From: a virus
Direction: 5' to 3' (one strand)
DNA length: 64,000 bases
IMG/VR virus record: IMGVR_UViG_3300042197_001803
Span: 31,858-95,857 of that record
The notes beneath the pieces were generated by a model, which searched no databases, was not told the DNA's origin, and saw only the letters and a list, made by a program, of their open reading frames with translations. Of this stretch, positions 24,504 to 63,505 are shown piece by piece; within the stretch, counting starts at the first letter, position 1, and the number at the start of each line of letters is the position of its first letter. Made by a program: the position numbers and the translations under genes.

Positions 24504-25289
24504 TTATTTTACATAACTTAATCTCTTAATCCCATCATCTGTAGTGGTGGTTGTTGTGGTATCGACAGTATGTCCATTTTCATCATACATTTCACCAATT
24601 TCATTCACATAATATTTAACAGGTACCTCAACTATTTTTTCAACTTCCTTGATGACTTCAATTGGTTTTTCAACTTCTTTAATAACTTCAACAGGAACCT
24701 CGACTATTTTTTCAACTTCTTTAATAACTTCAACAGGAACCTCGACTATTTTTTCAACTTCTTTAATAACTTCAACAGGAACCTCGACTATTTTTTCAAC
24801 TTCTTTAACTTCAATGTTATTTTCATTATTGTCTTTATATTTTATAAAGAAATGTAAAGAAGTTAATGATATGATAGGTAGTAAACCTCCTTCTAAAAAT
24901 GCCAACCATCTTTTTAATGAAATAATATCACCTACATCTGAACCTAAACTTTCCCACACAGGTAATGTTAACTCAACCCAAGCTTTGAATAACTCACCAT
25001 TAGCGTCTATTTCTTTATAGGAGTAAAAGATATTACCTATCATTTGAATAAATGTGACTAATCCAAACATAAACCAAACCCCACCTTTTATTTTATTAGT
25101 GGCGGCAACCAAAGCGGTCATAGCCCCAACCTCAATAGCGATAGATAAGTATATGGCCCAGTTAATTGGGTTTGCGATATCATACCACGAAACTACGTGT
25201 GATATTGAAATACCCGCAACGAGAACAATAGGGACTAAAAACATAGCCCTATTAGGATTATTTTTTATCCACTCAATAATTCTCTTCAT
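24504..25289 (-). CDS. Polytopic membrane protein with VEVPVEVIKEVEK repeats
   Basis: A 261-residue protein. Residues 15-32, 40-60, 70-90 and about 125-148 are hydrophobic helices (for example FLVPIVLVAGISISHVV and GGVWFMFGLVTFIQMIGNIF). From residue about 160 to 225 the protein is a tandem repeat of a 14-residue unit, VEVIKEVEKIVEVP, with one shortened copy, and it ends in a Thr-rich tail (VDTTTTTTTDDGIKRL). The hydrophobic part fits a holin-like role next to the amidase. The charged repeat should form a long stiff helix or beta-like rod in the cytoplasm or periplasm. No family is recognised. Confidence 0.7.
   Translation of the reverse strand: MKRIIEWIKNNPNRAMFLVPIVLVAGISISHVVSWYDIANPINWAIYLSIAIEVGAMTALVAATNKIKGGVWFMFGLVTFIQMIGNIFYSYKEIDANGELFKAWVELTLPVWESLGSDVGDIISLKRWLAFLEGGLLPIISLTSLHFFIKYKDNNENNIEVKEVEKIVEVPVEVIKEVEKIVEVPVEVIKEVEKIVEVPVEVIKEVEKPIEVIKEVEKIVEVPVKYYVNEIGEMYDENGHTVDTTTTTTTDDGIKRLSYVK
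24619..24808 (-). repeat. 42-bp tandem repeat inside membrane protein gene
   Basis: Almost identical 42-bp units (coding for the 14-residue unit VEVIKEVEKIVEVP) repeat about four times, with one unit shortened by 12 bases. Near-identity at DNA level shows that it expanded recently, and that copy number could vary between isolates. Confidence 0.85.
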
Positions 25290-35077: not shown

Positions 35078-35293
35078 ATGCCAATTGACATAACAATAAA
35101 CAATATTTCAGGAGCTTCACCATACGATGTTTATCTTTGTGATAACCCAGTTAGTGTTTGTGTTTATATAGACACAGTTTCATCACTACCTTATGTTTTT
35201 CAAGTTCCGTCTCTTATGTCAAATGATAACGATTTTAATTTAAAAATTGTAGATAATAATGGGTGCACTACCTATCAATATTTAAGTATCTAA
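35078..35293 (+). CDS. Small SprB-like tail-associated protein
   Basis: A 71-residue protein, [20 protein letters not shown] then [20 protein letters not shown] and a final [18 protein letters not shown]. The order of G-x-x-PY-x-V, a beta-rich core and V-D-x-x-GC is like a shortened SprB-type repeat unit. It is coupled to the fibre gene by TAATG at 35291-35295, so both are made together. It may be a chaperone or tip subunit of the fibre. Confidence 0.6.
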
Positions 35294-37908
35294 TGCAGGT
35301 AACAACAATCATAAGAATAATCTCTTGTACTGACTTAACAGTATACTATGCGTATTATAGTGACCCGTTGATACTGTTACCAGGTAAAATCTATAATTTT
35401 AGTTTTACAATGGGTTCAACAATCCCTGATGGATGTTACACTTACGTACAAGATGAAATGCCTGGAGTACCTATAACAGGAACTGTATTATCAGTTAATG
35501 GTGGTCCTTACGCAAATTGTGAGGAATGTTTTATTGCACCTCCAACCCCAAGTCAAACACCAACTCCAACAGTAACTCCAACTAATACTGTAACACCTAC
35601 TAGTACTCCAACTCCAACAGTAACTCCAACTAATACTGTAACACCTACTAGTACTCCAACTAATACTGTAACACCTACTAGTACTCCAACTCCAACAGTA
35701 ACTCCAACTAATACTGTAACACCTACCAACACTCCAACACCCACACCAACACCATGCGGTTGCGAATGTATGACAATTGATTCAACATTATCATTTTTCG
35801 CCACAGGTAATACTAGTAATCCAAATAATGTAGCATATTACGAATATTATGATTGTAATAGTAATTTAGTCACTATTGTAGACAATAATATAGGGTATTT
35901 TAATATATGTGTTAGTAATTGCAATTTAGTTAAAGCGTATTTTTGGAGATTAGACGTTTATTACGAATCCACCTCTTTCCCATGGAATCCATTTACAGGT
36001 CCTGGTATAAATGCTGTTTGTAATGGAACCCCATGTTGTAATCAAAGTGATTGTGGTGCACCACCACCAACTTTACCTCCAACACCCACACCAACGACAA
36101 CACCTACACCAACCATAACATCTACACCAACACCAACGGTTACTCCTACGGTTACCCAAACGGTTACCCCAACAAAAACGCCCACTCAAACACCGACAGT
36201 AACTCCAACCATAACACCAACCTCAACTGTCACTCCAACAGTTACACCTACCGTAACACCAACAAGAACCCCAACTAATACCCCTTCAATAACACCAACA
36301 AACACACCAACAAAAACTGTAACACCTACTGTTACTCCAACAACAACACCAACACCAACACCAACACCTGTTGGTTGTTTTGAAAATTATTGTATAACGG
36401 GGACTGGTGATTCAGGTATTGACGACAATTATACTAGTGGTGGAACATATAATGGAGCTTTGTATTGGGTTGGTAGTGTAAATGGGTTATACATTTATTA
36501 TGATACAACTAATAGTCAATGGTGTTTATCAGCATCTTTAGGTGGTTCATGTATTTTATCAGGTAAATCACCTTGTGTTTCAACATGTCCTGATTTATGT
36601 CAAGATTATTTTTTCATAGGTATTTGTCCAACTCCAACTCCAACACCAACATTACCTTGTGATGTTAATTTTGAAGTGTTGTTTGATTGTGAATTTACAC
36701 CGACCCCTTCAATTAGCCAAACACCTACAGTTACACCAACAGTTACCGTAACCCCAACACCTTCAAATGTTTGTTCAGTTATTGGTGTCGACGCAACAAT
36801 TAATTCATATACACCAACTCCAAGCCCAACACCTAGTTTGACACCATCAAACACGCCAGCGGTTGTTAGACCTTGTAATTTTACAGGTAATGTTAGTTTT
36901 AATAATGTTAATGAAATTATTAGATGTCCATTTAGTAAACAATTCCAAGATTGTTTTAATGGTGAAATGTATTTTACAACAAATGAAATTAATAACCCAG
37001 GTGGTGGAAGTGTTGAACAATTTATGGTTTTTGAAGCTTTGGTTGATGGGTCATCAAGATGTGTTTCCTATATAGGAGATAATCAAGACACAATAGGTAT
37101 AAATCAAGTAGAGCTAAGGTATGGTCCTTTTGGATATTCTAATTTGGGCGACTGTATTAATTGTAGTCAGTTTGAAAGTCCAACCCCTACACCAACTTCA
37201 ACGGTAACCCCAACACCAACATTAACTCCAACACCAAGTAACACGCCAGTGGAAAACGCTTATTATGTTTATGTAAGATGTGACGATGAAAGAAAATATG
37301 TTGTTCAGACATCACCAGGTCCAACAACAAATATTAACACATCATTTATAAGTTTAGTCGATAATAAATGTTGGAAATTCTTGTATGTTTCATCAGGGTT
37401 CCCATCTATTAATCCTCTATATGATGTAATTAATTACACAGGTAATTATTTCACGCAAACAACTAACCAATCATTTAAAACTTGTGAATTATGTAATGCG
37501 GCTTTAATCGCGTCCACAACCACAACAACTTCAACGACTACACTATCACAACAAAATTATATAATAAACTATAGTGTTACAAAAACTGTGGATTGTTCTA
37601 CAACAATTGGTAGAATATTGGTAAATGGAGTTATTAAATACAGTATTACAACAGGATTAGCACCTGGTAATTATTCAGGTAATTTTACAGTAAAAGACAA
37701 TGATGTTGTTATTTTTGATTTCTCAACTATAGCACCGTCGCCATCATGTACAGGATTAATTCCTACTATATCAATATCGGACACTAAAGGAATAGTTAAT
37801 GAGTATGCAGAATACGGATTACCTAATCAAACAATATATGAAACATTTGTTGTAGATTATAATTGGATTGGTAATACAATACAAATATTGTCCAGTACCA
37901 CCACATAA
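35293..37908 (+). CDS. Fibre-like protein with Thr/Pro linkers and Cys domains
   Basis: The ATG at 35293 ([14 protein letters not shown], 871 residues) is preferred because it overlaps the preceding stop in a TAATG. Six or so small Cys-containing domains of 60-110 residues alternate with Thr/Pro runs such as [20 protein letters not shown] (from about residue 85), [20 protein letters not shown] (about 260) and shorter ones. The domains often end in C-x-x-C ([28 protein letters not shown]). A Thr-rich run ([11 protein letters not shown]) comes near the end. It has no signal peptide. It is most likely a tail fibre or virion-surface adhesin. Confidence 0.75.
35541..35755 (+). repeat. Thr/Pro linker repeats, first block
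   Basis: Tandem near-identical units such as ACTCCAACTAATACTGTAAC and CCTACTAGTACTCCAACT encode [13 protein letters not shown]. The high DNA identity shows recent expansion. Antisense reading frames of Gly-Val repeats seen here are a by-product. Confidence 0.85.
36062..36372 (+). repeat. Thr/Pro linker repeats, second block
   Basis: A longer, more degenerate block of CCAACA/ACTCCT-type units that encode about 100 residues of TPT, TVT, TNT and TKT steps. It separates two Cys-containing domains of the fibre protein. Confidence 0.8.
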
Positions 37909-38639: not shown

Positions 38640-41162
38640 TTAGAAATCAAACTTAATTAGGAATTGTTGAATTCCTTGTCTTAAAACTGGTGATTGTAGT
38701 TTTGAAATAACCATCAAATCTTTATCTGAATCGTATAAACCAACTTCAGTAATGTAAGATTTAGTTCCTTGTGTCCATGTAGGGTTTGAAGTTGATAAGA
38801 ACTCGGCTTGACCCAAATTAATCTTATACCTCATTTCATATATGGTGGCCTGTATATCAGTTTCTAATGAACCGTAAAAATAATATTCATCACCAAAGTT
38901 TAATTGGGTACCACTAAAACCTGCCTGAGTAATATCAATATAATCACTTAAATCATAGTTAGACGCATTATCGTACAACTCTTGAGTAATAACAAACGTA
39001 CTACCAGTTAAACCGCTTTGAGTTATATATCCATTTACCGTTGAAGCGGTTAACTGACTTGTGAAATCAATTATTTTCCACTCTTCAGGGTCAGGTCTTG
39101 TATCACCAGAAACTTTTTGACAAATAATCTCAAATTTATTGGCAAAAAATCCACTACCTAAATCACAAAAAGTAGGACAAATAGTTGTCGTTGTGGTCGT
39201 GGTACCTATTGTAGTTGTTGTGGTCGTGGTACCTATTGTAGTTGTTGTGGTTGTGGTTGGGGAATCCGCTGGTTGTGATAAACAAGCAAATTCAGGACCA
39301 AACCTTACTCCAACATTTTGTGATGTGATTGGTTGGCAATCAATATTAGGACCTTGTATCTTTTGATAGTAGTTACAATGTAAAGAATCTGTATAATCTA
39401 AAGTATTGGTAAATCTATAAGTAACATACAAATATTCTGTATTACCTGTTAATATACCAACAAAAGATTCACCTTCAGTATTACAAGTATTTGGTGTAAC
39501 TAATGTTAATTTAGGTGCTGGTAATGTCCAATTTCTATTTGATTTATATGACATCGCTGCGATAATTTCCTCATCGTCAATAACAATAATTTGTTGGTCA
39601 GGAAATACTTTACCGACTCTACTTGGGAATCCATCATCGTTTGGGTTATCATCCCATAAGTGGTAATATCTTAAACCTGGAGTATTCATATCAACATTTT
39701 TAGTTGACTCAATATATTCAACTTTGAATAAACCAAAATCTTCAAACCCTGGCGGGTCAACCCAAAATGTTTGTCCATAACAACAATCAGGATTTTTATG
39801 CCACATAATCCAAGGTATGTGTAATCTGAAGTTTCTTGCTTGTCCTATGGCATTCGGGTTTGTGTCATCAAATGGTTGTAATGCGAATTTTTCACCATAG
39901 AAGAAATCAATTGTTTGATTAGTATAATGAATAATAGCAATGGCTTTTTGGTCTTTAGGTTCTAATCTAACTCTTTCATCAAATGAATTATAATAAAAAA
40001 CAGAACTAGTATCTGTTTGACCGCTTGATGATGCGTAACCTAAATACTCTTTAGTGCCCAAATAATTTATTGAACCGAATTCAGTGTAGTTCTTATGTGT
40101 GTTGGAGAATATACCAGCTGGTGTTTCAGACCAAGGAATATTCATATTCCATATTTTAACATCAAAAGCATCTGTATTACATACTGATTCAAAATTAATA
40201 ACATCATCATTCCAATGTCTTGATGGTGTTATTGAATCGTAAAGTGATGTCATGTTTGGTGGGTATATTAATGTCCTTGCATAACATTTATTGGAGTATG
40301 TTGAGAAATCAGGTGTTGCTCTATCTAAAGTATATTCGTCTAAACATATTCCAACAATCTTGTATGTTAAAATGTGATAACAACTATTAATAGAAACTAA
40401 ACAATCAGGTGGTGGAGGAGGTGGGCACGCTCTACTTGGTGTTGGTGTTGGGCAAAAAGTCGCTGACGGGGTGGGAGTAGGTGTTGGTGATGCACATGGG
40501 TTTCCATTAGTTGCTGATGGTGTTGGGGTAGGTGTTGGTGAAGTGTTAATTGTTGGTGTCACCGATGGTGTGGGTGTAGGTGTTAGTGGTATTGGGTATT
40601 CACAATTACAGTTGTTTTTACCATTACCGTCATAATAAATTGTAATTATATCCCCAACGGCAGGTAATCTAACTATGTCCGTATTACATCCTGAATATAC
40701 CAATTTTATTGTAGTACCACCTGTTACTGTGGACATATCAACAATGTAGTTAGAGTTTATAACATAAAAATTATTAGTTAAAGCACTCCAATTTATAGTT
40801 GTTGCCGTAGTATCACCAGTGAAAAACCCTCTCATTACAGGTCTATTATATACAGGACTAACAACAGAATCCATATAAGGTATTCCATAAGTGTTACCTG
40901 TAATACCATCAACATAATATGGGTATTTTACATGTTGTTTATTTGATTCAGGAACACCACTAATGTTTTGGGCGTTAAACCCAGGCTCAAGTACATTACT
41001 ATTTGTTTGGTTGTATGTTGATGGTAAGGCGTTATACGAAACTTCACTATCACCAACTTGGAAATACGAAATATTAAATCTTCCTTGTGATAGTTTTTGT
41101 CTACCAGCGTCAGTTAATCTTGTGTTGACTAAACCAGAAGTATTTTTTAAAATAAAACCCAT
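38640..41162 (-). CDS. Tail fibre/collar-like structural protein
   Basis: An 840-residue protein. The N-terminus MGFILKNTSGLVNTRLTDAG, with RQKLSQGRFNISYFQVGDSE, is typical of phage tail/fibre proteins that attach to the baseplate. At about residues 190-255 is a Pro/Thr linker (PTPTPSVTPTINTSPTPTPT), and at about 640-665 a Thr run (TTTTTTTIGTTTTTTTIG). The C-terminus SYITEVGLYDSDKDLMVISK, followed by LQSPVLRQGIQQFLIKFDF, resembles the end of fibre/collar proteins. The middle is beta-rich. It is probably a virion-surface protein. Confidence 0.78.
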   Translation of the reverse strand: MGFILKNTSGLVNTRLTDAGRQKLSQGRFNISYFQVGDSEVSYNALPSTYNQTNSNVLEPGFNAQNISGVPESNKQHVKYPYYVDGITGNTYGIPYMDSVVSPVYNRPVMRGFFTGDTTATTINWSALTNNFYVINSNYIVDMSTVTGGTTIKLVYSGCNTDIVRLPAVGDIITIYYDGNGKNNCNCEYPIPLTPTPTPSVTPTINTSPTPTPTPSATNGNPCASPTPTPTPSATFCPTPTPSRACPPPPPPDCLVSINSCYHILTYKIVGICLDEYTLDRATPDFSTYSNKCYARTLIYPPNMTSLYDSITPSRHWNDDVINFESVCNTDAFDVKIWNMNIPWSETPAGIFSNTHKNYTEFGSINYLGTKEYLGYASSSGQTDTSSVFYYNSFDERVRLEPKDQKAIAIIHYTNQTIDFFYGEKFALQPFDDTNPNAIGQARNFRLHIPWIMWHKNPDCCYGQTFWVDPPGFEDFGLFKVEYIESTKNVDMNTPGLRYYHLWDDNPNDDGFPSRVGKVFPDQQIIVIDDEEIIAAMSYKSNRNWTLPAPKLTLVTPNTCNTEGESFVGILTGNTEYLYVTYRFTNTLDYTDSLHCNYYQKIQGPNIDCQPITSQNVGVRFGPEFACLSQPADSPTTTTTTTIGTTTTTTTIGTTTTTTTICPTFCDLGSGFFANKFEIICQKVSGDTRPDPEEWKIIDFTSQLTASTVNGYITQSGLTGSTFVITQELYDNASNYDLSDYIDITQAGFSGTQLNFGDEYYFYGSLETDIQATIYEMRYKINLGQAEFLSTSNPTWTQGTKSYITEVGLYDSDKDLMVISKLQSPVLRQGIQQFLIKFDF
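39185..39258 (-). repeat. 27-bp Thr-codon repeat
   Basis: Two and a half near-identical units encode TTTTTTTIG. The unit is a recent duplication in the structural gene. Confidence 0.75.
40434..40600 (-). repeat. Thr/Pro linker repeat in 840-residue protein
   Basis: A block of about 165 bases that encodes TPTPTPS-type residues, interrupted by two short Cys-containing pieces. It is related in sequence to the linkers of the neighbouring fibre genes. Confidence 0.75.
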
Positions 41163-41188: not shown

Positions 41189-42487
41189 TTATGTTGTTAT
41201 TCCACCAGTACTATAACCCCCAACGCTTCCTGATGAACCTTCATTTATGTTTATTATTTCAACATTACAACAAGAACAACCATTTATAGAAGCTGTTGTA
41301 ATACTATAAGTATCCAAACTTTCACCAACAAGACATTTCAATAAAGTTTTAGATACTGTTGTTGTTGTGTTTAATACGACAACATCACCACTGTTTATAG
41401 TTACTGAATTCCAAATATCATTGGTTGTCTTTTTATACACTATAGTATCTTGACAACCTGGTATTGTATTTTGAGAAATTGATACCCCTACAGAGCTCAA
41501 AGGAGGTGATTGAGGAATACCATTAATTGTTAAAACTGTATTTGTTGTAAGTGTTGATGTTGTTGGTGATGGTGCAGAACTAAATAAATTAGAATGATTT
41601 AATTTAAGATTTAAAGAAACCCCACTTGGTAACGGTGGTGTTACATTAACAGTTGCCGTCACTTGATTTGTCTTTAGAGTTGGGGTATTACTAATTGTTG
41701 TCACTACAGGTGTAATACTAACACTATAAGTCACAGGTTGTTGACTATTTGTTAACACAACAGAACTATAAAAAGTATTTGAATTGCTATCAGTTAATAC
41801 AAGTGTGTAAGTACCACTACATAGATTATTGAATATTGCTGATGAAGATTGACTAACTCCATTATCTATCGAATATTGATACGGTGGCGTACCACCATAT
41901 GGTTGGAACACTATACTTCCGTCACACTCACAGGTAGGTCTGTTTGTTATAACTGAAAAACCTAAAGGATTTGTTGTTAGACAATTACCTTCATTACTTA
42001 TTAGGTTACCAGCTCCACCGCCAACGGTATACCAACCTGTTAAAGGAGGGTACGATGAATTTGAGACTATTTGATATGGTAGGGTTCCTCCACTTACTCT
42101 CCATTTATTTAATGATGTGTCAAAAATTATTAAATAATTTGTGTCATCAGATATCCACGATTCATAACCATTGTAAAGACCATTAGGGTTAAAATGTAAA
42201 GCAAAATCACCATCAATTACAATACAAAAATCGTAAGTTTGTACTGGATTTTCAACAGGAAAACTTTGATTTATTTTACATAATTCATTATATAAATAAA
42301 GTACTGTTGTTTCATCAGGTACTGTAACATAATAACCTGAAGTTAGTTCACTTAATGTAACACCGCTAGCAGGTGTGTAGTACAAATATTTTAAGGCAAT
42401 ATTGTTATTATTTATTGTATTATAATAAATTGTATAAGGACCTGGGGATGTTCCTCCTGTTATAGTAACTAAATAATTTTGACTCAT
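41189..42487 (-). CDS. SprB-repeat tail protein, 432 residues
   Basis: The ATG at 42487 ([12 protein letters not shown]) is preferred over one 12 bases upstream, because it overlaps the preceding stop in an ATGA. Residues about 1-170 are beta-rich, with [20 protein letters not shown] and [14 protein letters not shown], a module that also occurs in the fibre protein at 35293. Residues about 178-255 are a clear SprB repeat: [26 protein letters not shown], then [16 protein letters not shown]. The rest has Thr/Pro-rich strands. It is probably part of the virion surface. Confidence 0.75.
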
Positions 42488-43500
42488 TCTGTAATACAAT
42501 TAGAACTTCCAAGGTTTATGATTTCAACATAATCAGGTGCACTAACACTGCCTTCACAAGCACATAATGATAAATAATACCCTGTGAATACATAGGATTC
42601 TACAGGATAATTAGGTCCCAAACAATATCTATAATATATTGTTGGTGTTGTTGTTAGGTAATCAGGATTTCTAAATTCATATCTAACACAATCACAAGGA
42701 CCAACAAAAGTGCTTGGTGTTGGGGTTGGTGTTGGTGTTTTTGTTGGTGTTACAGTTTTTGTTGGTGTTGGTGTTGGTGTAGGACTACTATTAGGGGTTT
42801 TAGTTGGTGTAGGTGTGGGTGTTGGTGTGTTAGAAACATTAGGTGTAATAGTAGGTGTTGGCGTAATCGTAGGTGTGGGTGTATTAGTCGGTGTTGCAGT
42901 TGGGCTTGGTTCTGTGACAAAATTTTGAACTGATGCACTGAATGAACAATCATATTCTGAAGTTAACTCACAAGTTGTGGTGGCGCTAAAGTCACCATAA
43001 TAATCAATTACCGTAGCACTATAGGTACCAACAGTTAAGTTTTGAATCGCAGGTGCTATATTACCATTACTCCAAATAACAGTGTATGGTGGAGTTCCGC
43101 CAGTAATCGATACCGACATTTCACCATCGGCTGACGTTGGTGAAGATGGATTTGAAATTACACATTCAATCTCCATTGGAAAAATTGTTATTACATTACA
43201 CTCATTAACTGGTTGTGGTTGAATGGGTAATGGTGTAGGAGTTGGTTCTTCGCAGGGATTTTCAAGTAAACACGCGTAACAATCAGAACCGTAGTATAAC
43301 GTTTCAACTACATCACTATATATTGGGGAATCATTAGGAACTAACCCTTCATAATAAACACCACATATTGTTTGTGTTTCGGTTATTACTTTATATGTTA
43401 CACCAACAATAAATGGTTCTACAGGTATAAACTCAATACCAAAGTAGTTATCCTTATCATTTGGATATTCACAACAAGTCCTAAAATATAAAAATCCCAT
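42484..43500 (-). CDS. SprB and Thr/Pro-linker tail protein, 338 residues
   Basis: The first 85 residues are a Cys-containing domain that ends in [20 protein letters not shown]. Residues about 110-180 form a SprB repeat ([20 protein letters not shown], then [16 protein letters not shown]). After this comes a Thr/Pro linker (about 195-260, [20 protein letters not shown] and more) and a final Cys-containing domain that begins [14 protein letters not shown]. The order is domain, SprB, linker, domain. Its end overlaps the next gene by four bases. Confidence 0.78.
42709..42905 (-). repeat. Thr/Pro linker repeat in 338-residue protein
   Basis: Repeated units of GTTGGTGTTGGTGTT type on the plus strand encode TPTPT on the minus strand. 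The low complexity invites recombination with the similar blocks at 35541, 40434 and 45012. Confidence 0.8.
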
Positions 43501-43532: not shown

Positions 43533-44498
43533 TTATTGTTTTTTGATTATTTCTTTCATAAGTTCTACGTATTTTTTTGTAGCACTATTGTTGTCCACAT
43601 AATCAAAGTAATTAATATTTTCTTTTAGTTTTTCTAACGGGTTAACATTTATGAAATCACCTTTAAAAAATTTTGTGTTTTTTAAGTCTGCGGTTACACC
43701 TGCCATATGTAATATTGGTCTCTTTTCATAAATTTTGATATCATCGGTTGCCCAAGAAAAATCAAGTTCTTTTGTTATTTTAGTTTCTTTATCAAAATAC
43801 CATAAGTTCCATAATAAAGACCACATTTCTGCAGTCCAAAATTGTATCTCACCAGGATTAATTGGGAATCTTCTCTGATAATCCAACATTTGATTATATA
43901 ATGGAGTACAATCCATATATATCTTTTCCCAAATCATCCAATCTGTTTTTTTAATAATGTATTGACCGCCACCAGAATTATCTTGGTTACATTCAACACA
44001 TTGGGGGTCAATACCTACCACATCACACATTTCTTGTAACAATTGTCCTTTACCTGAATTTGGGTGAGTTTTTTCATATCTTTCACAACAATCCATAATA
44101 TAGTTGTAACCTATATATCCAATAGTGTCGGACAAATAAATAACATCATCTTTAAGTAGTGATTTAAAATTTGGTAGTTCTCTAAAAATTATATCAGAAT
44201 CATGTAAGAAAAAACAATCACCGTGTTCAGGAAACTCTCTAAGCCATTTATAAATTAAAAATGGTTTTATACTTGGTATATATTTTTTATCTTCTCTATC
44301 ATCTAAATAATGATGAATATTAATACCTAAATCTTTTAAAGATAAAGATTCTTTAGTTGGTTCCGTATTTGGTGTTACTATACCTAATAAAACATGTATA
44401 TCTTTTGGATTTATACCTTTTTGTATAAAATTTTCAACATAAACTCTAATTTGCCAATGAAAATAAGGTACGTCAGGTTGTGATGTAACAAACAACAT
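43533..44498 (-). CDS. Putative glycosyltransferase (GT-A type)
   Basis: A 321-residue protein. VPYFHWQIRVYVENFIQKGI with IHVLLGIVT at the start and GDCFFLHDSDIIFRELPNF at about residues 92-110 are visible; the D-S-D is in the place of the metal-binding DXD of GT-A enzymes. Later come SGGGQYIIKKTDW and GEIQFWTAEMWSLLWNLWYF. The layout is like the peptidyl-serine galactosyl- and hydroxyproline arabinosyl-transferases. The exact sugar and acceptor are unknown. It lies among genes with mucin-like Thr/Pro linkers, which makes glycosylation of those tail proteins an attractive guess. Confidence 0.65.
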   Translation of the reverse strand: MLFVTSQPDVPYFHWQIRVYVENFIQKGINPKDIHVLLGIVTPNTEPTKESLSLKDLGINIHHYLDDREDKKYIPSIKPFLIYKWLREFPEHGDCFFLHDSDIIFRELPNFKSLLKDDVIYLSDTIGYIGYNYIMDCCERYEKTHPNSGKGQLLQEMCDVVGIDPQCVECNQDNSGGGQYIIKKTDWMIWEKIYMDCTPLYNQMLDYQRRFPINPGEIQFWTAEMWSLLWNLWYFDKETKITKELDFSWATDDIKIYEKRPILHMAGVTADLKNTKFFKGDFINVNPLEKLKENINYFDYVDNNSATKKYVELMKEIIKKQ

Positions 44499-44568: not shown

Positions 44569-44748
44569 ATGAAATTACTCAAAACAATAACTAAATTAGT
44601 TTTAGAATCTAAGGATGCTTTGGATAGAGCCGCTGAGCGAGGTGTTAGTGAAAAAGAATTGGATAGGTTGGAAAAAAACTACATTGATTCATTAAAATTG
44701 ATGAAATTGTATGAGAATATTGGGAAATCTAATCCTGATAAAAATTAA
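44569..44748 (+). CDS. Small tag-like protein, 59 residues
   Basis: The protein begins [20 protein letters not shown] and continues [20 protein letters not shown] with a short tail. The first part has the form of the N-terminal tags on other genes (hydrophobic-x-x-L-V-L-E-S). The rest is a charged helix. It is alone on the plus strand within the minus-strand tail operon and its end overlaps the SprB gene stop by four bases. It may be a packaged peptide or a tagged accessory protein. Confidence 0.6.
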
Positions 44749-47432
44749 CATCCGCCACCAATTGGTGAGCACTCTATCCCTAATACCCCACTTCCACTGA
44801 TATTAAATACTTGATTCACCCCACCTTGTTTCAAGAAACCACCCCAAAGGAATAAACCTGTCAATGAGTCATTAATATATATTGTAACACCATTTGTTAA
44901 CGATGTTACACCATATGTTGTGTATACTGTTATTGTTGAACCTGTGACATCACAAAGACCACCAACACAATATGATGAATTCCAAATAACTGTATGAGCT
45001 CTGTATAACGGACTTGGTGTTGGGGTTCTTGTTGGTGTAACAGTAGGTGTTGTGGTAGGTGTAATAGTAGGTGTTACTGTAGGAGTCGTGGTTGGTGTTG
45101 GGCTAGCAAATTGTGTTGGTGTAGGAGTTGTGGTTGGTGTAGGACTTGCAAACATTGTTGGTGTAACTGTAGGTGTGGCCGTTGGTGTTGGTGAAGGTGT
45201 TTTAGTTGGTGTTAATCCTGGTGTTACTGTTGGTGTTGGTGTTACATTTGGTGTTCTAGTTACTGTAGGTGTTGGTGTTGGTGAAGGAGGTACATCACAA
45301 GCAACACAAGAAATATTGTAAAATATTACCATATCAATCAAAACTTGCTTGTCAGATAATGTCACATTAGGGTCACAATTACTTAAAATTTTAATTATGT
45401 TATTTTCAGGGTCTATTATAACATTTCCAATACCACTTTCAGTTTCTAAAACTTCTTCTATTGTATCATACCACAAATTGTCGGATGGATAATCATTTAA
45501 TGTCGTACCTGTATAAAAATTCTTTGATGCTATAGTAGTACCCAAAGTAATTTTAACTTGGAATACAGCACTATTTAATACACAATTAACATCATCAATA
45601 GTAAGGTCATAGAAACCTTCATTTAACATTTCTCTAGGACCTTTTTTAATTTGGATTCCGCTATTTGTAAAATTAGTATCACAAATAGAATATGTTTGGT
45701 AAGACGTAATTAAGTTAGTACCTTCAATAACAACTGATTTTTGTTTAGTACATCCCAAACTATCTGTTACGGTTAATGTGTAGGTACCTGCGGATAAGTT
45801 ATTAACAGTTAAACCAGTTTGACCATTAACGTTACTACTCCAAACCAAATTAAACTGAGGCTCTCCATCAGTAATAAACGCAGTTATCGAGCCATCATTT
45901 CCATTTGTAGTATTAATACCTGCTAAAATAAAATCAACATTTGTTGATGGGTCAACAAAATATGATGTAGTGATTGTACATCCCGTTCCATCGGTAACTG
46001 TAACTACATTATTTCCTGACGCTAAATTAGTGAACGTATATCCACTATCACTTGTTGGTCCGAATACAGATGCGTTAGCAATAAATGTGTATGGTGGAGT
46101 ACCACCTGAAATACCCAATTCAAGAGACCCATTTGAAAGTCCGCAAGTAGTACCAGTAGTACTACCTGTTAAATTCATAGTAGATAGATTATTAATTGTG
46201 TATGCACTTGTAAACGTACAAACACCGTCTTCAATAGTTAAATTATACGTACCAGCCGATAGATTGGTAAACTGCCAAGTCTGACTTGTGGTTGCTTGAG
46301 ATACACTACTACCATCAGGATATTCTAATGTGTATGTGTAGTTGCCTGACCCACCAAATATTGATATAGGGTTTAATGAACCACCATTATTACCACATAA
46401 AGTAGGATTAACACTAACACTTGTTATTGAAAATCCACCAGGTGGTAATACAGAAGTTGTTGTAGTGAATGTACATAAACCCGCATCAGTTACCTGTATT
46501 GTAAACACGCCAGGTGCTAAATTAGTAAACTCATATGTCGGTTCAAACGTTATTTGAATTGTTCCGTTAGAACCTGAATAATAATATGGTGCAGTACCTC
46601 CAGTTACTGTTATTTCAACCCTTCCGTTTGAAGTAAAACAGTCAGGGTTTGTTGTAACTAAAGAACCTAATCCGATTGGTGGTACATTTGGAACTGATGT
46701 TGATTTTGTTACCGCACATCCTGTTGAGTCTGTAACGGTAACGCTATATCCACTTGCGGTTAAACCTGTTATACTTGATGTGGTTTCTCCGTTATTCCAC
46801 AAATATGTGTATGGTGGGTTACCTGTAATACCAGTTACGAATATTTTACCCGAATCTACTGAACAGCCCGCGTCTGCAACAACATAAAAACCAAAATCAA
46901 CGGTAGTTGAGCTTTTTACTATACATGTTTGAGTTTTACCTGTACACCCACCCCCATCATCAACAACAATATAGTAAGTATCGGCAGTTAAAAACCCATC
47001 AAAAGTTATTGTACCGTCAAATGAACTACCAGATGTTATAAAAAGATTGTCATCATTATATAAACTAAATGTTGCGGTACCATAATAGTTTGTTGTTGAT
47101 GCTGACAAACTACCGTTATTTAAACCGCAAGTTGTATTACCAATTGCGGTTATTGAAGCGCAAGTTCCGCTAGAGATATAAATATTAACAGGTAATATGG
47201 TATTAGTTGGTGTACAACTATCAATAATATTAATGGTATATGTGTCGGCAGATAAACCTGATATTGAGTATTGTGTTACTCCAACACCTAAAGCTGTGGT
47301 TCCTGATGCGGGATTAACCCATTGAATACTATAATCAGGCGCACTGCCTAAGATGTCTATGGTAAACGCTCCTGAGTTTGTATTACTACAGTCGCCAGTT
47401 ATTGAAATATTATATCCTAAAACACAAGACAT
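44745..47432 (-). CDS. Seven-repeat SprB-type tail adhesin with linker
   Basis: An 895-residue protein. Residues 1 to about 560 are about seven SprB-type beta repeats of 75-85 residues. Good examples are [20 protein letters not shown] with [17 protein letters not shown], and [20 protein letters not shown] with [11 protein letters not shown] bridging domain ends in [14 protein letters not shown], then comes a Thr/Pro linker of about 105 residues ([20 protein letters not shown] onward), and a small Gly-rich C-terminal domain ends in ECSPIGGGC. There is no signal peptide or type-9 secretion tail, so it is a virion, not a host-surface, protein. It is probably a receptor-binding or decoy component. 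Confidence 0.8.
45012..45290 (-). repeat. Thr/Pro linker repeat in 895-residue protein
   Basis: About 280 bases that encode TPT/TVT/TAT steps with two copies of [11 protein letters not shown]. Similar to the other linker blocks, and a hot spot for length change. Confidence 0.8.
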
Positions 47433-61201: not shown

Positions 61202-63040
61202 TCAAGAGAAATTAACTGTTTTAAGATTTTTAACCCTAACATTTATATCTTTACCAGGGTATCTAACTTGATATGTTTGATTTGGTTGAGCAAAAATGGT
61301 ATCGTCAATTAATTCAATTTGTCTTGTTTCATTATTAACATATCTTTGAGATGTTTGTGATGATGAATATTGACCGCCCACTTTATTAAAAAATAACATA
61401 TCAGATAAAGCAATAACACCATTTTCACTTTGAATTAATCTTCTTAATTCGGATACAAAGACATTTTGACCCATTTGTCTATTCAATGGACTAAAGAATT
61501 CTGTTACAATATTAATAATTTGTGAAATTACAGTTCCTTGGTTTTGACTATTATCTAATACAACATCAATAGTAATACCTAAATCTATAACATTTGCAGT
61601 TTCAATTGAAATGTAATCATTTATCATTCTATAATTTGATAAATAATTAGCCACATTATTCTTAAGGGTATTTGAAACAATTTCAGTTAGTGAACCAGCT
61701 TCATCATAAGATAACATTTGAATCTTTATCTTATTGTTTTCTTCGGTTATAGCAACTTTAGCGGGAGCACCGAATTGAGATGGCATTGTTCTAATTAAAG
61801 AATCGTAGTCATTAACAGTTACCGCTCTGTTCTGAGCCGAGAAGTTAAATGAAACCAAGTTTCTAACTTCTTCAGTGGTCGGGAAATTAGCCCCACCAAT
61901 TGCCGCGGTTACGTTAGTACAACTCAATGACCTAACAACTGTAGTATTAACAGATTCTGAAGGTCCGTTAACAAAAAATGAAACAGTACCAATTTGTGTT
62001 ATTACATTAACACCTAAATTTGACGCTGTACCACCACCAATTCTATACTGAACAAAAAGTGTTGAGTTGGCTTTTAATACACTACCAAGTGCAAAGTTGT
62101 TTGAGTATTTATTTAAATTTAGTGTATACCCGTTTCTTGCAAATTCTCTTAATTGTTCGTCGGCCGATTGACTACCACCACCAAAAGTCATTTTTAAGAA
62201 TCCTTCGGGTGTATATTCAGTAATGAACTTATCATTAGTCTCAATATATCTACCAACTTTGATACCAGGTGAATCTGAAACTTTTGTAGGGTCTTCAATA
62301 AAAACTCTACTTTCAGCCAAGGCTTTAACTTCATACCATCTATTATCTAAACCTAAAAACTCTTGTGTTGTAGGTACATTAGCATATTGTGTACCATCTT
62401 TAAGTAGTACACTAGTTACCCCTAATACATTTTTTTCAGGTAAAAATATTTCTAAAAATGGTTTTACATCAACAGGTGTAATAACTCTTTTAAAAACTTT
62501 AGTTGTACCATTAACAACAGTTTCTCTTTTAACAATAGTATAATTGATTAATTTATTGTTAGCGTCAAAATTAGGTATTTTTAATCTGTTAGGGAATCCG
62601 TCACCACCGATAGGTGATGCAAAGTCAATGTCATAAACAGTTTCAAAAACTTGACCACCACCATTTACTTGTGAACCTCTTCGTAATATACCACAATATC
62701 TAATATCTTCTTTATCACCAAAAGCGGGAACCGTAATTGAGAAATCAACTAAAGCGACTGAGGGTCTCATACCAGGAACTTTTAATCCGTATGTTCTAGC
62801 GATATTAAAAATAGATGACCTTTGTTGAGCATATTGTAATACAGTTTCCTGAATACTTCTGTCGATATTAAAATGTAAATTATCAGTAACCGCAGCATTT
62901 AAATCCATCAATACTGAGAATACCGATGCGTCATTGAAGTTATCAATGGTTTCAGGATAATAAGTTCTTGTAAAATTTATTAACTCAGTTCTAATGGATT
63001 GGAAATCCCTAGTGGTGTACGATATTTTTTTATTGGCCAT
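61202..63040 (-). CDS. Baseplate wedge protein (gp6/baseplate J-like)
   Basis: A 612-residue protein with the T4 gp6-like start ISYTTRDFQSIRTELINFTR, then DASVFSVLMDLNAAVTDNLH and RTYGLKVPGMRPSVALVDFS, and the typical baseplate_J body FNFSAQNRAVTVNDYDSLIR with LRRLIQSENGVIALSDM at the end. This forms the inner wedge ring of the baseplate. It lies next to gp25, as in T4. The leader has CTATTTATC for the following gene at 61130. Confidence 0.92.
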   Translation of the reverse strand: MANKKISYTTRDFQSIRTELINFTRTYYPETIDNFNDASVFSVLMDLNAAVTDNLHFNIDRSIQETVLQYAQQRSSIFNIARTYGLKVPGMRPSVALVDFSITVPAFGDKEDIRYCGILRRGSQVNGGGQVFETVYDIDFASPIGGDGFPNRLKIPNFDANNKLINYTIVKRETVVNGTTKVFKRVITPVDVKPFLEIFLPEKNVLGVTSVLLKDGTQYANVPTTQEFLGLDNRWYEVKALAESRVFIEDPTKVSDSPGIKVGRYIETNDKFITEYTPEGFLKMTFGGGSQSADEQLREFARNGYTLNLNKYSNNFALGSVLKANSTLFVQYRIGGGTASNLGVNVITQIGTVSFFVNGPSESVNTTVVRSLSCTNVTAAIGGANFPTTEEVRNLVSFNFSAQNRAVTVNDYDSLIRTMPSQFGAPAKVAITEENNKIKIQMLSYDEAGSLTEIVSNTLKNNVANYLSNYRMINDYISIETANVIDLGITIDVVLDNSQNQGTVISQIINIVTEFFSPLNRQMGQNVFVSELRRLIQSENGVIALSDMLFFNKVGGQYSSSQTSQRYVNNETRQIELIDDTIFAQPNQTYQVRYPGKDINVRVKNLKTVNFS

Positions 63041-63046
63041 ATACTA

Positions 63047-63505
63047 TTAAATATTTAATATTATAAAATCTGAAGATTCTAAAGCGGTGTCGGTTATTGT
63101 ATAGTCAATTTTAACTTTGGCTGTGTGTTCCATTGTACCAATACCAGGAACTCTATAAACACGAGTATCATTATTACTAATATAAGTTCCTTTATCTTCT
63201 TCACCATCTGACGCTGCAGTAACACTTATGTTGGTTATTGTTATACCTGGCATATAAGTTTCAACCGCCTGTCTTATTTCTGCAGAAATCTCAGAAAAAG
63301 TAGGACCATCTAACGGTTCAAATATATATTCATATAATCTTGTTCCAAAATCAGGTAAAAAATATCTGCTACCTTTTCTAGTTAAAATCAAATGAATTAA
63401 ATCGGTTCTGATTTCTTCGTCATTAAAATCCGATAAATCAAAATAATTTCCAGTGAAAGAATCTCTAAACGGAAAATTAATACCGTATGTTTTACCATCT
63501 GCCAT
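63047..63505 (-). CDS. Baseplate wedge protein (gp25-like)
   Basis: A 152-residue protein of the gp25/GPW family: NFPFRDSFTGNYFDLSDFND, then LIHLILTRKGSRYFLPDFGT and RLYEYIFEPLDGPTFSEISA, the hallmark of the family, and VETYMPGITITNISV. It connects the baseplate wedge to the tail sheath. It is the first gene of the tail operon in this window. A TATTTATAA element at 63534-63543 lies 28 bases upstream of the ATG. Confidence 0.93.
   Translation of the reverse strand: MADGKTYGINFPFRDSFTGNYFDLSDFNDEEIRTDLIHLILTRKGSRYFLPDFGTRLYEYIFEPLDGPTFSEISAEIRQAVETYMPGITITNISVTAASDGEEDKGTYISNNDTRVYRVPGIGTMEHTAKVKIDYTITDTALESSDFIILNI

Follow-up and report, generated by a model that had tools for sequence, protein, structure and literature searches.

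The window, the whole 64,000-nucleotide stretch of DNA that was analysed, belongs to a virus record consisting of a 95.9-kb contig. The ORF under study (43533-44498) lies in a region downstream of the baseplate wedge genes at 61202-63505 and, judging from the sequence, these genes mark a baseplate/tail module (Table 1). Thr/Pro linkers are found in the neighbours at 44745-47432, 42484-43500 and 38640-41162, all on the minus strand, and in that at 35263-37908 on the plus strand. This last gene, oriented opposite to its neighbours, encodes 66 TP dipeptides and matches PHROG 15511, whose function is unannotated. An earlier note on this DNA had described a GT-A-like gene with a D-S-D motif, set among tail genes whose neighbours carry such linkers; both descriptions held, since the 321-aa product contains D100-S101-D102, four neighbours have linkers and the wedge genes lie upstream of the region. 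That note overlooked the poly-Thr blocks at 39183-39257, which turned out to be the informative feature. Elsewhere in the window, a membrane-like protein (24504-25289, minus strand) has VEVPVEVIKEVEKI repeats and a T7 run near its C-terminus (24540-24560). The SprB repeats, together with a relative of the enzyme in a Chryseobacterium phage, suggest a possible Bacteroidota host.

Table 1. Features of the predicted glycosyltransferase region in the window.
Feature	Position	Strand	Remarks
Predicted GT-A glycosyltransferase, PHROG 4417 family	43533-44498	-	321 aa, ATG start; D100-S101-D102, H264-x-A-G, K279-G280
Tail protein with Thr/Pro linkers and three T7 blocks	38640-41162	-	840 aa; likeliest candidate acceptor
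Poly-Thr tract TTTTTTTIGTTTTTTTIGTTTTTTT, three T7 blocks	39183-39257	-	proposed O-glycosylation acceptor; mixed Thr codons
Thr/Pro-linker protein	35263-37908	+	881 aa; T5-S-T3 tract at 37513-37542; possible second acceptor
Tail protein with SprB-like repeat	41189-42499	-	one T4 at 41357-41368; acceptor role improbable
Thr/Pro-linker protein with SprB-like repeat	42484-43500	-	adjoins the glycosyltransferase gene; no T run of 4 or more
SprB-repeat tail protein with Thr/Pro linker	44745-47432	-	895 aa; homologues also in contigs without the glycosyltransferase
Baseplate wedge gene, gp6-like	61202-63040	-	PHROG baseplate-wedge match
Baseplate wedge gene, gp25-like	63047-63505	-	PHROG baseplate-wedge match

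A predicted GT-A fold in a phage family without annotation

Along its entire length the window protein matches PHROG 4417, a family labelled 'unknown function' (E 1.9e-72). Distant members also give full-length matches to this profile, with values down to E 4e-156 in Bacillota. Searches of the enzyme in Pfam, NCBIfam and PADLOC returned nothing, and a sequence search against solved structures gave chance matches only. Membership of CAZy GT8 or GT24 was also considered and is not supported by sequence: none of 40 family members matched a Pfam glycosyltransferase, and no solved structure was matched.

We therefore rely on structure prediction and motifs for the assignment. An AlphaFold (AF2) model built from 40 homologues reached a pLDDT of 96.7 and a pTM of 0.93. 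The top 50 PDB matches listed by Foldseek were all GT-A enzymes, the best being the UGGT catalytic domain (E 1.6e-6, probability 1.00), and glycogenin, XXYLT1, the ABO transferases and WbbM were also among them. TM-scores to GT8, GT24 and GT6 structures were about 0.34-0.47 on the query. We take UGGT to be a GT24, glycogenin a GT8 and the ABO transferases GT6 enzymes, and these families to be retaining. D100, D102, H264 and K279 are invariant in the 40 homologues, the first two within a DxD metal-binding motif (D100-S101-D102), and the H...KG arrangement resembles the metal/phosphate motifs of GT8. What the protein shares with GT8, GT24 and GT6 enzymes (glycogenin, UGGT, XXYLT1, ABO) is thus the fold, the DxD and the H...KG arrangement, while sequence similarity to them is undetectable in Pfam or among solved structures. 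By its modelled fold and conserved motifs the window protein is a GT-A glycosyltransferase; fold prediction and comparison with glycosyltransferase families, the check that the earlier note had proposed for its assignment, thus pointed to a retaining GT-A fold with a probability of 1.00.

Full-length relatives were found by tblastn in 74 named phage records, with about 32-38% identity among the matches listed. They also occur in 257 viral contigs, so the ORF is not a chance reading frame. The 74 phages mostly infect Lactobacillus, Enterococcus, Staphylococcus and Lactococcus, with the addition of Chryseobacterium phage MA9V-3 and one Arcanobacterium phage record; genome matches were Bacillota in 35 of 35 cases by record titles. 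The PHROG 4417 enzymes are therefore a widespread phage family without functional annotation. The gene has structural genes around it, which in Bacillota phages encode capsid and tail proteins; in phages of Enterococcus, Staphylococcus, Lactococcus and Lactobacillus it neighbours the major tail or head protein. It comes directly behind the major tail protein in phiFL1A and follows the major head protein in bIL285 and 9183. SA2 and TPWB06 have it close to the major tail protein, and LpeD and iLp84 next to a small protein rich in Thr. In phiFL2A (L620:6416-7233) the homologue matches in two pieces and only a small gene is annotated; this copy may be frameshifted or misannotated.

Poly-Thr tags and the enzyme in Bacillota phages

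All 115 enzyme loci from two broad scans (L104-L218) encode an 8-aa segment with at least 6 Thr. In these phages poly-Thr is carried by one or both of the major head and tail proteins, or else by a separate small protein, and T6-T7 runs are commonest. In phiFL1A, for example, the head protein ends in ...TTTTTKPTTTTTKPTTTTTTTQG and the tail protein in ...TTTTTTTQASSK; in Lacticaseibacillus phage iLp84 the head and the tail protein both have TTTTTTTSK. Homologous core proteins were compared with and without the enzyme to tell linkage from chance; like all our enzyme/tail counts, those that follow draw on related sequences and cannot be read as independent events. The iLp84-type head protein carried the poly-Thr tail in 26/26 enzyme-positive and 1/30 enzyme-negative cases, the lone exception having an enzyme fragment at the contig end. 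For the L153-type head protein the counts were 56/56 versus 2/15, and both exceptions were contigs ending 99 bp downstream, so that in all three discordant head-protein cases the contig stops just past the head gene. The phiFL1A-type tail protein was tailed in 3/3 enzyme-positive versus 0/7 enzyme-negative relatives. The bIL285-type tail protein has its tail together with the enzyme (TTTTTTTTTRHD in bIL285), and seven of seven fetched relatives without the enzyme lack it. A Bacillaceae-type tail protein family (161 genomes), tested after the hypothesis had been set although a few enzyme-positive members had already been seen, had the tail in 8/8 members with the enzyme in the locus versus 0/23 others. 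Two of these 23 (G160 and G180) encode the enzyme about 1.5 kb upstream, and there poly-Thr is found on a small separate neighbour and not on the tail protein.

Head and tail proteins of the same phage lose their tails jointly, at core identities of 94-99% and 91-97%, respectively. In iLp84 the tailed head and tail proteins are more than 2 kb apart, and flanking DNA is 90-97% identical where tails and enzyme are absent. Among close relatives, one locus (L093) has enzyme and tails and another (L094) has neither, with tail proteins 91% identical; a further pair (L090 and L092) differs likewise at 88%. In the phiFL1A family, identity patterns imply at least two separate enzyme/tail switches.

Poly-Thr insert and Thr/Pro linkers in the window's own group

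The tail proteins next to the enzyme in the window had no relatives among named phages, so the control group was taken from a scan of viral contigs with the baseplate protein gp6. The contigs recovered were mostly fragments, leaving five usable enzyme-negative loci (G007, G008, G010, G012 and G016), all of which lack the enzyme but retain Thr/Pro linkers and tail genes homologous to those of the window. Their five homologues of the 38640-41162 protein have 5 TPTP units each, and enzyme-negative records of 208 kb and 88 kb contain many TPTPT sites. The poly-Thr insert of this protein, however, is absent at one identical site in all five contigs, and a T run of at least 5 occurred in 46/49 enzyme-positive homologues versus 0/5 enzyme-negative ones (again counts of related sequences). 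Since the linkers are kept where the insert is missing, the enzyme is tracked by poly-Thr and not by the Thr/Pro stalk. The 38640-41162 product is most likely the acceptor in the window phage, as far as gene content can indicate.

These results bear on the earlier proposal that the gene glycosylates tail proteins on their TPTPT linkers. The distribution of the enzyme does indicate structural proteins of the virion as acceptors, but the linkers are probably not the site: they do not co-vary with the enzyme, contrary to the co-occurrence that the proposal predicted, and the Bacillota relatives examined carry poly-Thr instead of TPTPT.

Properties of the poly-Thr tracts and discordant cases

Runs of 6 and 7 Thr are the most frequent both in Bacillota phages and in the window group. 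Different Thr codons are intermixed, and identical ones adjoin each other at close to the expected rate (0.28 versus 0.27 and 0.37 versus 0.42). Together, the run-length peak and the mixed codons point to selection on the peptide; microsatellite slippage as the origin of the tracts is unsupported, given the mixed codons. The residues that follow poly-Thr were shared by the head and tail protein of the same phage in 28 of 68 cases against 4.8 expected by shuffling, a suggestive match in counts uncorrected for kinship.

Several cases do not fit. L253, whose mosaic record resembles a prophage and encodes an Ig-type head protein, keeps ETTTTTTTSK in its tail protein, and the enzyme was not found within its 40 kb. 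An enzyme-negative contig of the window group (L433) has a single T6 run, and the enzyme-positive Enterococcus phage 9183 has only TTTDPVTTTSTTRQ, with a longest Thr run of 3. For ORFs with tracts of T10 or longer, the enzyme lay inside 8 of 68 loci, with 2 more at record level, which far exceeds the background of a few hundred enzyme contigs among 2.9 million. Most long poly-Thr proteins in phages nevertheless have another explanation. Around T10 tracts without the enzyme, four glycosyltransferase matches were found among 121 neighbours (families shown: GT2 twice, GlcNAc and GT25); being so few, such neighbours leave poly-Thr in general unexplained. Runs from T10 to T30 or more were common in phage proteins without the enzyme (L445-L524).

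A proposed peptidyl-threonine glycosyltransferase

The fold, the motifs, the gene neighbourhood, the near-perfect co-occurrence of enzyme and poly-Thr and their joint absence in near-identical relatives are directly supported. Because the poly-Thr tails and insert vanish with the enzyme while the Thr/Pro stalks stay, the enzyme is very probably a GT-A peptidyl-threonine O-glycosyltransferase acting on poly-Thr blocks of the phage's own virion proteins. We infer its catalysis, Thr as the acceptor, the retaining stereochemistry and the surface display. The enzyme would be soluble, metal-dependent and retaining, and would take sugar from a nucleotide-sugar donor and attach it to hydroxyl groups of clustered Thr, in blocks of about T6-T7 that are often repeated with spacers of 2-4 residues. 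In Bacillota phages the blocks are C-terminal tails of the major head protein, the major tail protein or both, or tails of small separate Thr-rich proteins; in the T4-like tail module of the window, the block is an internal insert in the 38640-41162 protein. Dense O-glycosylation of a patch of the virion surface would result.

It is improbable that the acceptors are instead the long TPTPT stalks of tail fibres. These linkers resemble mucin or Pro-rich acceptors and occur in most of the best 80 enzyme loci, but same-group contigs retain them without the enzyme (all five homologues with their 5 TPTP units), and the Bacillota relatives examined bear no such stalks. Another possibility, to which we give very little weight, is that the enzyme's substrate is phage DNA or a polymer of the host cell wall, with the tails hitchhiking as passengers in its cassette. 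A published account names DNA or the host envelope as frequent targets of phage glycosyltransferases (PMC12619734), and in many phages only a short distance separates the enzyme from the tailed genes, so that linkage could contribute. Hitchhiking is however difficult to reconcile with head and tail proteins that lose their tails together with the enzyme across the more than 2 kb separating them in iLp84, within otherwise conserved flanks, or with an association that spans unrelated virion proteins, small separate proteins, an internal insert and several gene orders.

That poly-Thr consists of neutral or structural linkers generated by slippage, associated with the enzyme through shared ancestry, is hardly credible. 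The loci are indeed related, and tracts of T10 or longer are common in phage proteins without the enzyme; yet the mixed codons, the near-expected rate of adjacent identical codons and the lengths peaking at 6-7 speak against slippage, and close relatives switch both features at once (L093/L094, L090/L092). 

Returning to glycosylation of poly-Thr, we consider it reasonably likely, if less so than the enzymatic activity itself, that tag and enzyme form a portable module of two parts, present in phages from at least two bacterial phyla: a tag of about T6-T7 suited to almost any virion protein and a dedicated cytoplasmic peptidyl-Thr glycosyltransferase. The two would be gained or lost together and could be exchanged for Ig-like decorations of the capsid.

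With this proposal, a phage family whose annotations read only 'unknown' or 'hypothetical protein' acquires a function. Glycosylated virions and their modified residues could then be predicted from sequence, and virion glycosylation would extend from mycobacteriophages to Bacillota phages and, by inference, to those of Bacteroidota. If the portable-module reading is true, it would represent a simple O-glycosylation code of bacterial type. A tag-directed cytoplasmic Thr glycosyltransferase is also a possible tool for making mucin-like glycopeptides.

Relation to known systems and possible alternative decorations

The nearest described system is virion glycosylation in mycobacteriophages. As described in published accounts, phage-encoded glycosyltransferases of Che8, Corndog and Myrna glycosylate the C-termini of capsid and tail-tube proteins (Freeman et al. 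2023, as cited in PMC12619734 and PMC12363180). The earlier note's statement that no phage system of this kind was described is thus too broad, although the enzymes and the tag of Che8 do differ. In the present case, too, the predicted glycosyltransferase is associated with C-terminal tags of head and tail proteins. Che8 gp108-110, however, comprise a GT2/methyltransferase fusion, gp109 without a Pfam match and a GT25-like gp110; none of the three matches the PHROG 4417 profile, and the A2 profile gave no significant match to them with filters off. The longest Thr run in the Che8 capsid and tail proteins is 1, unlike the poly-Thr seen here. By these features, all tested on Che8, the present case would work like the mycobacteriophage system yet appears to be no member of it. 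In the literature consulted, where coverage of subscription papers was thin, we came across no account of phage poly-Thr tags. Mucin-type O-glycosylation of clustered Thr likewise involves dense Thr blocks and spacers containing Pro or Ser, as proposed for the acceptors here; unlike in that system, the enzyme would work in the bacterial cytoplasm on virion subunits, and no relationship to GT27 was seen.

Phages without the enzyme may fill the position of the tag differently. In L. casei-type phages (L228-type) lacking the enzyme, a Big_2 Ig-like domain is encoded in another frame at the end of the head protein (around 9000-9300 in L228). Since it starts where the tail would be, different surface decorations seem to alternate in this slot, and the sequences of L228 and L253 suggest a frameshifted capsid decoration in the poly-Thr slot. 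A Big_2 domain in another frame likewise starts at the place of the poly-Thr tail in iLp84-type phages without the enzyme. Such a decoration is a protein domain, as opposed to a tag plus an enzyme, and the shared position suggests that Big_2 domain and poly-Thr tag are interchangeable surface decorations. In Staphylococcus phage SA2 (L086:6667-6930) and Arcanobacterium phage TPWB06 (L088:6720-6926), an overlapping ORF composed of 65% T/S/P starts within the end of the major tail protein, and is possibly a frameshift-extended poly-Thr tail.
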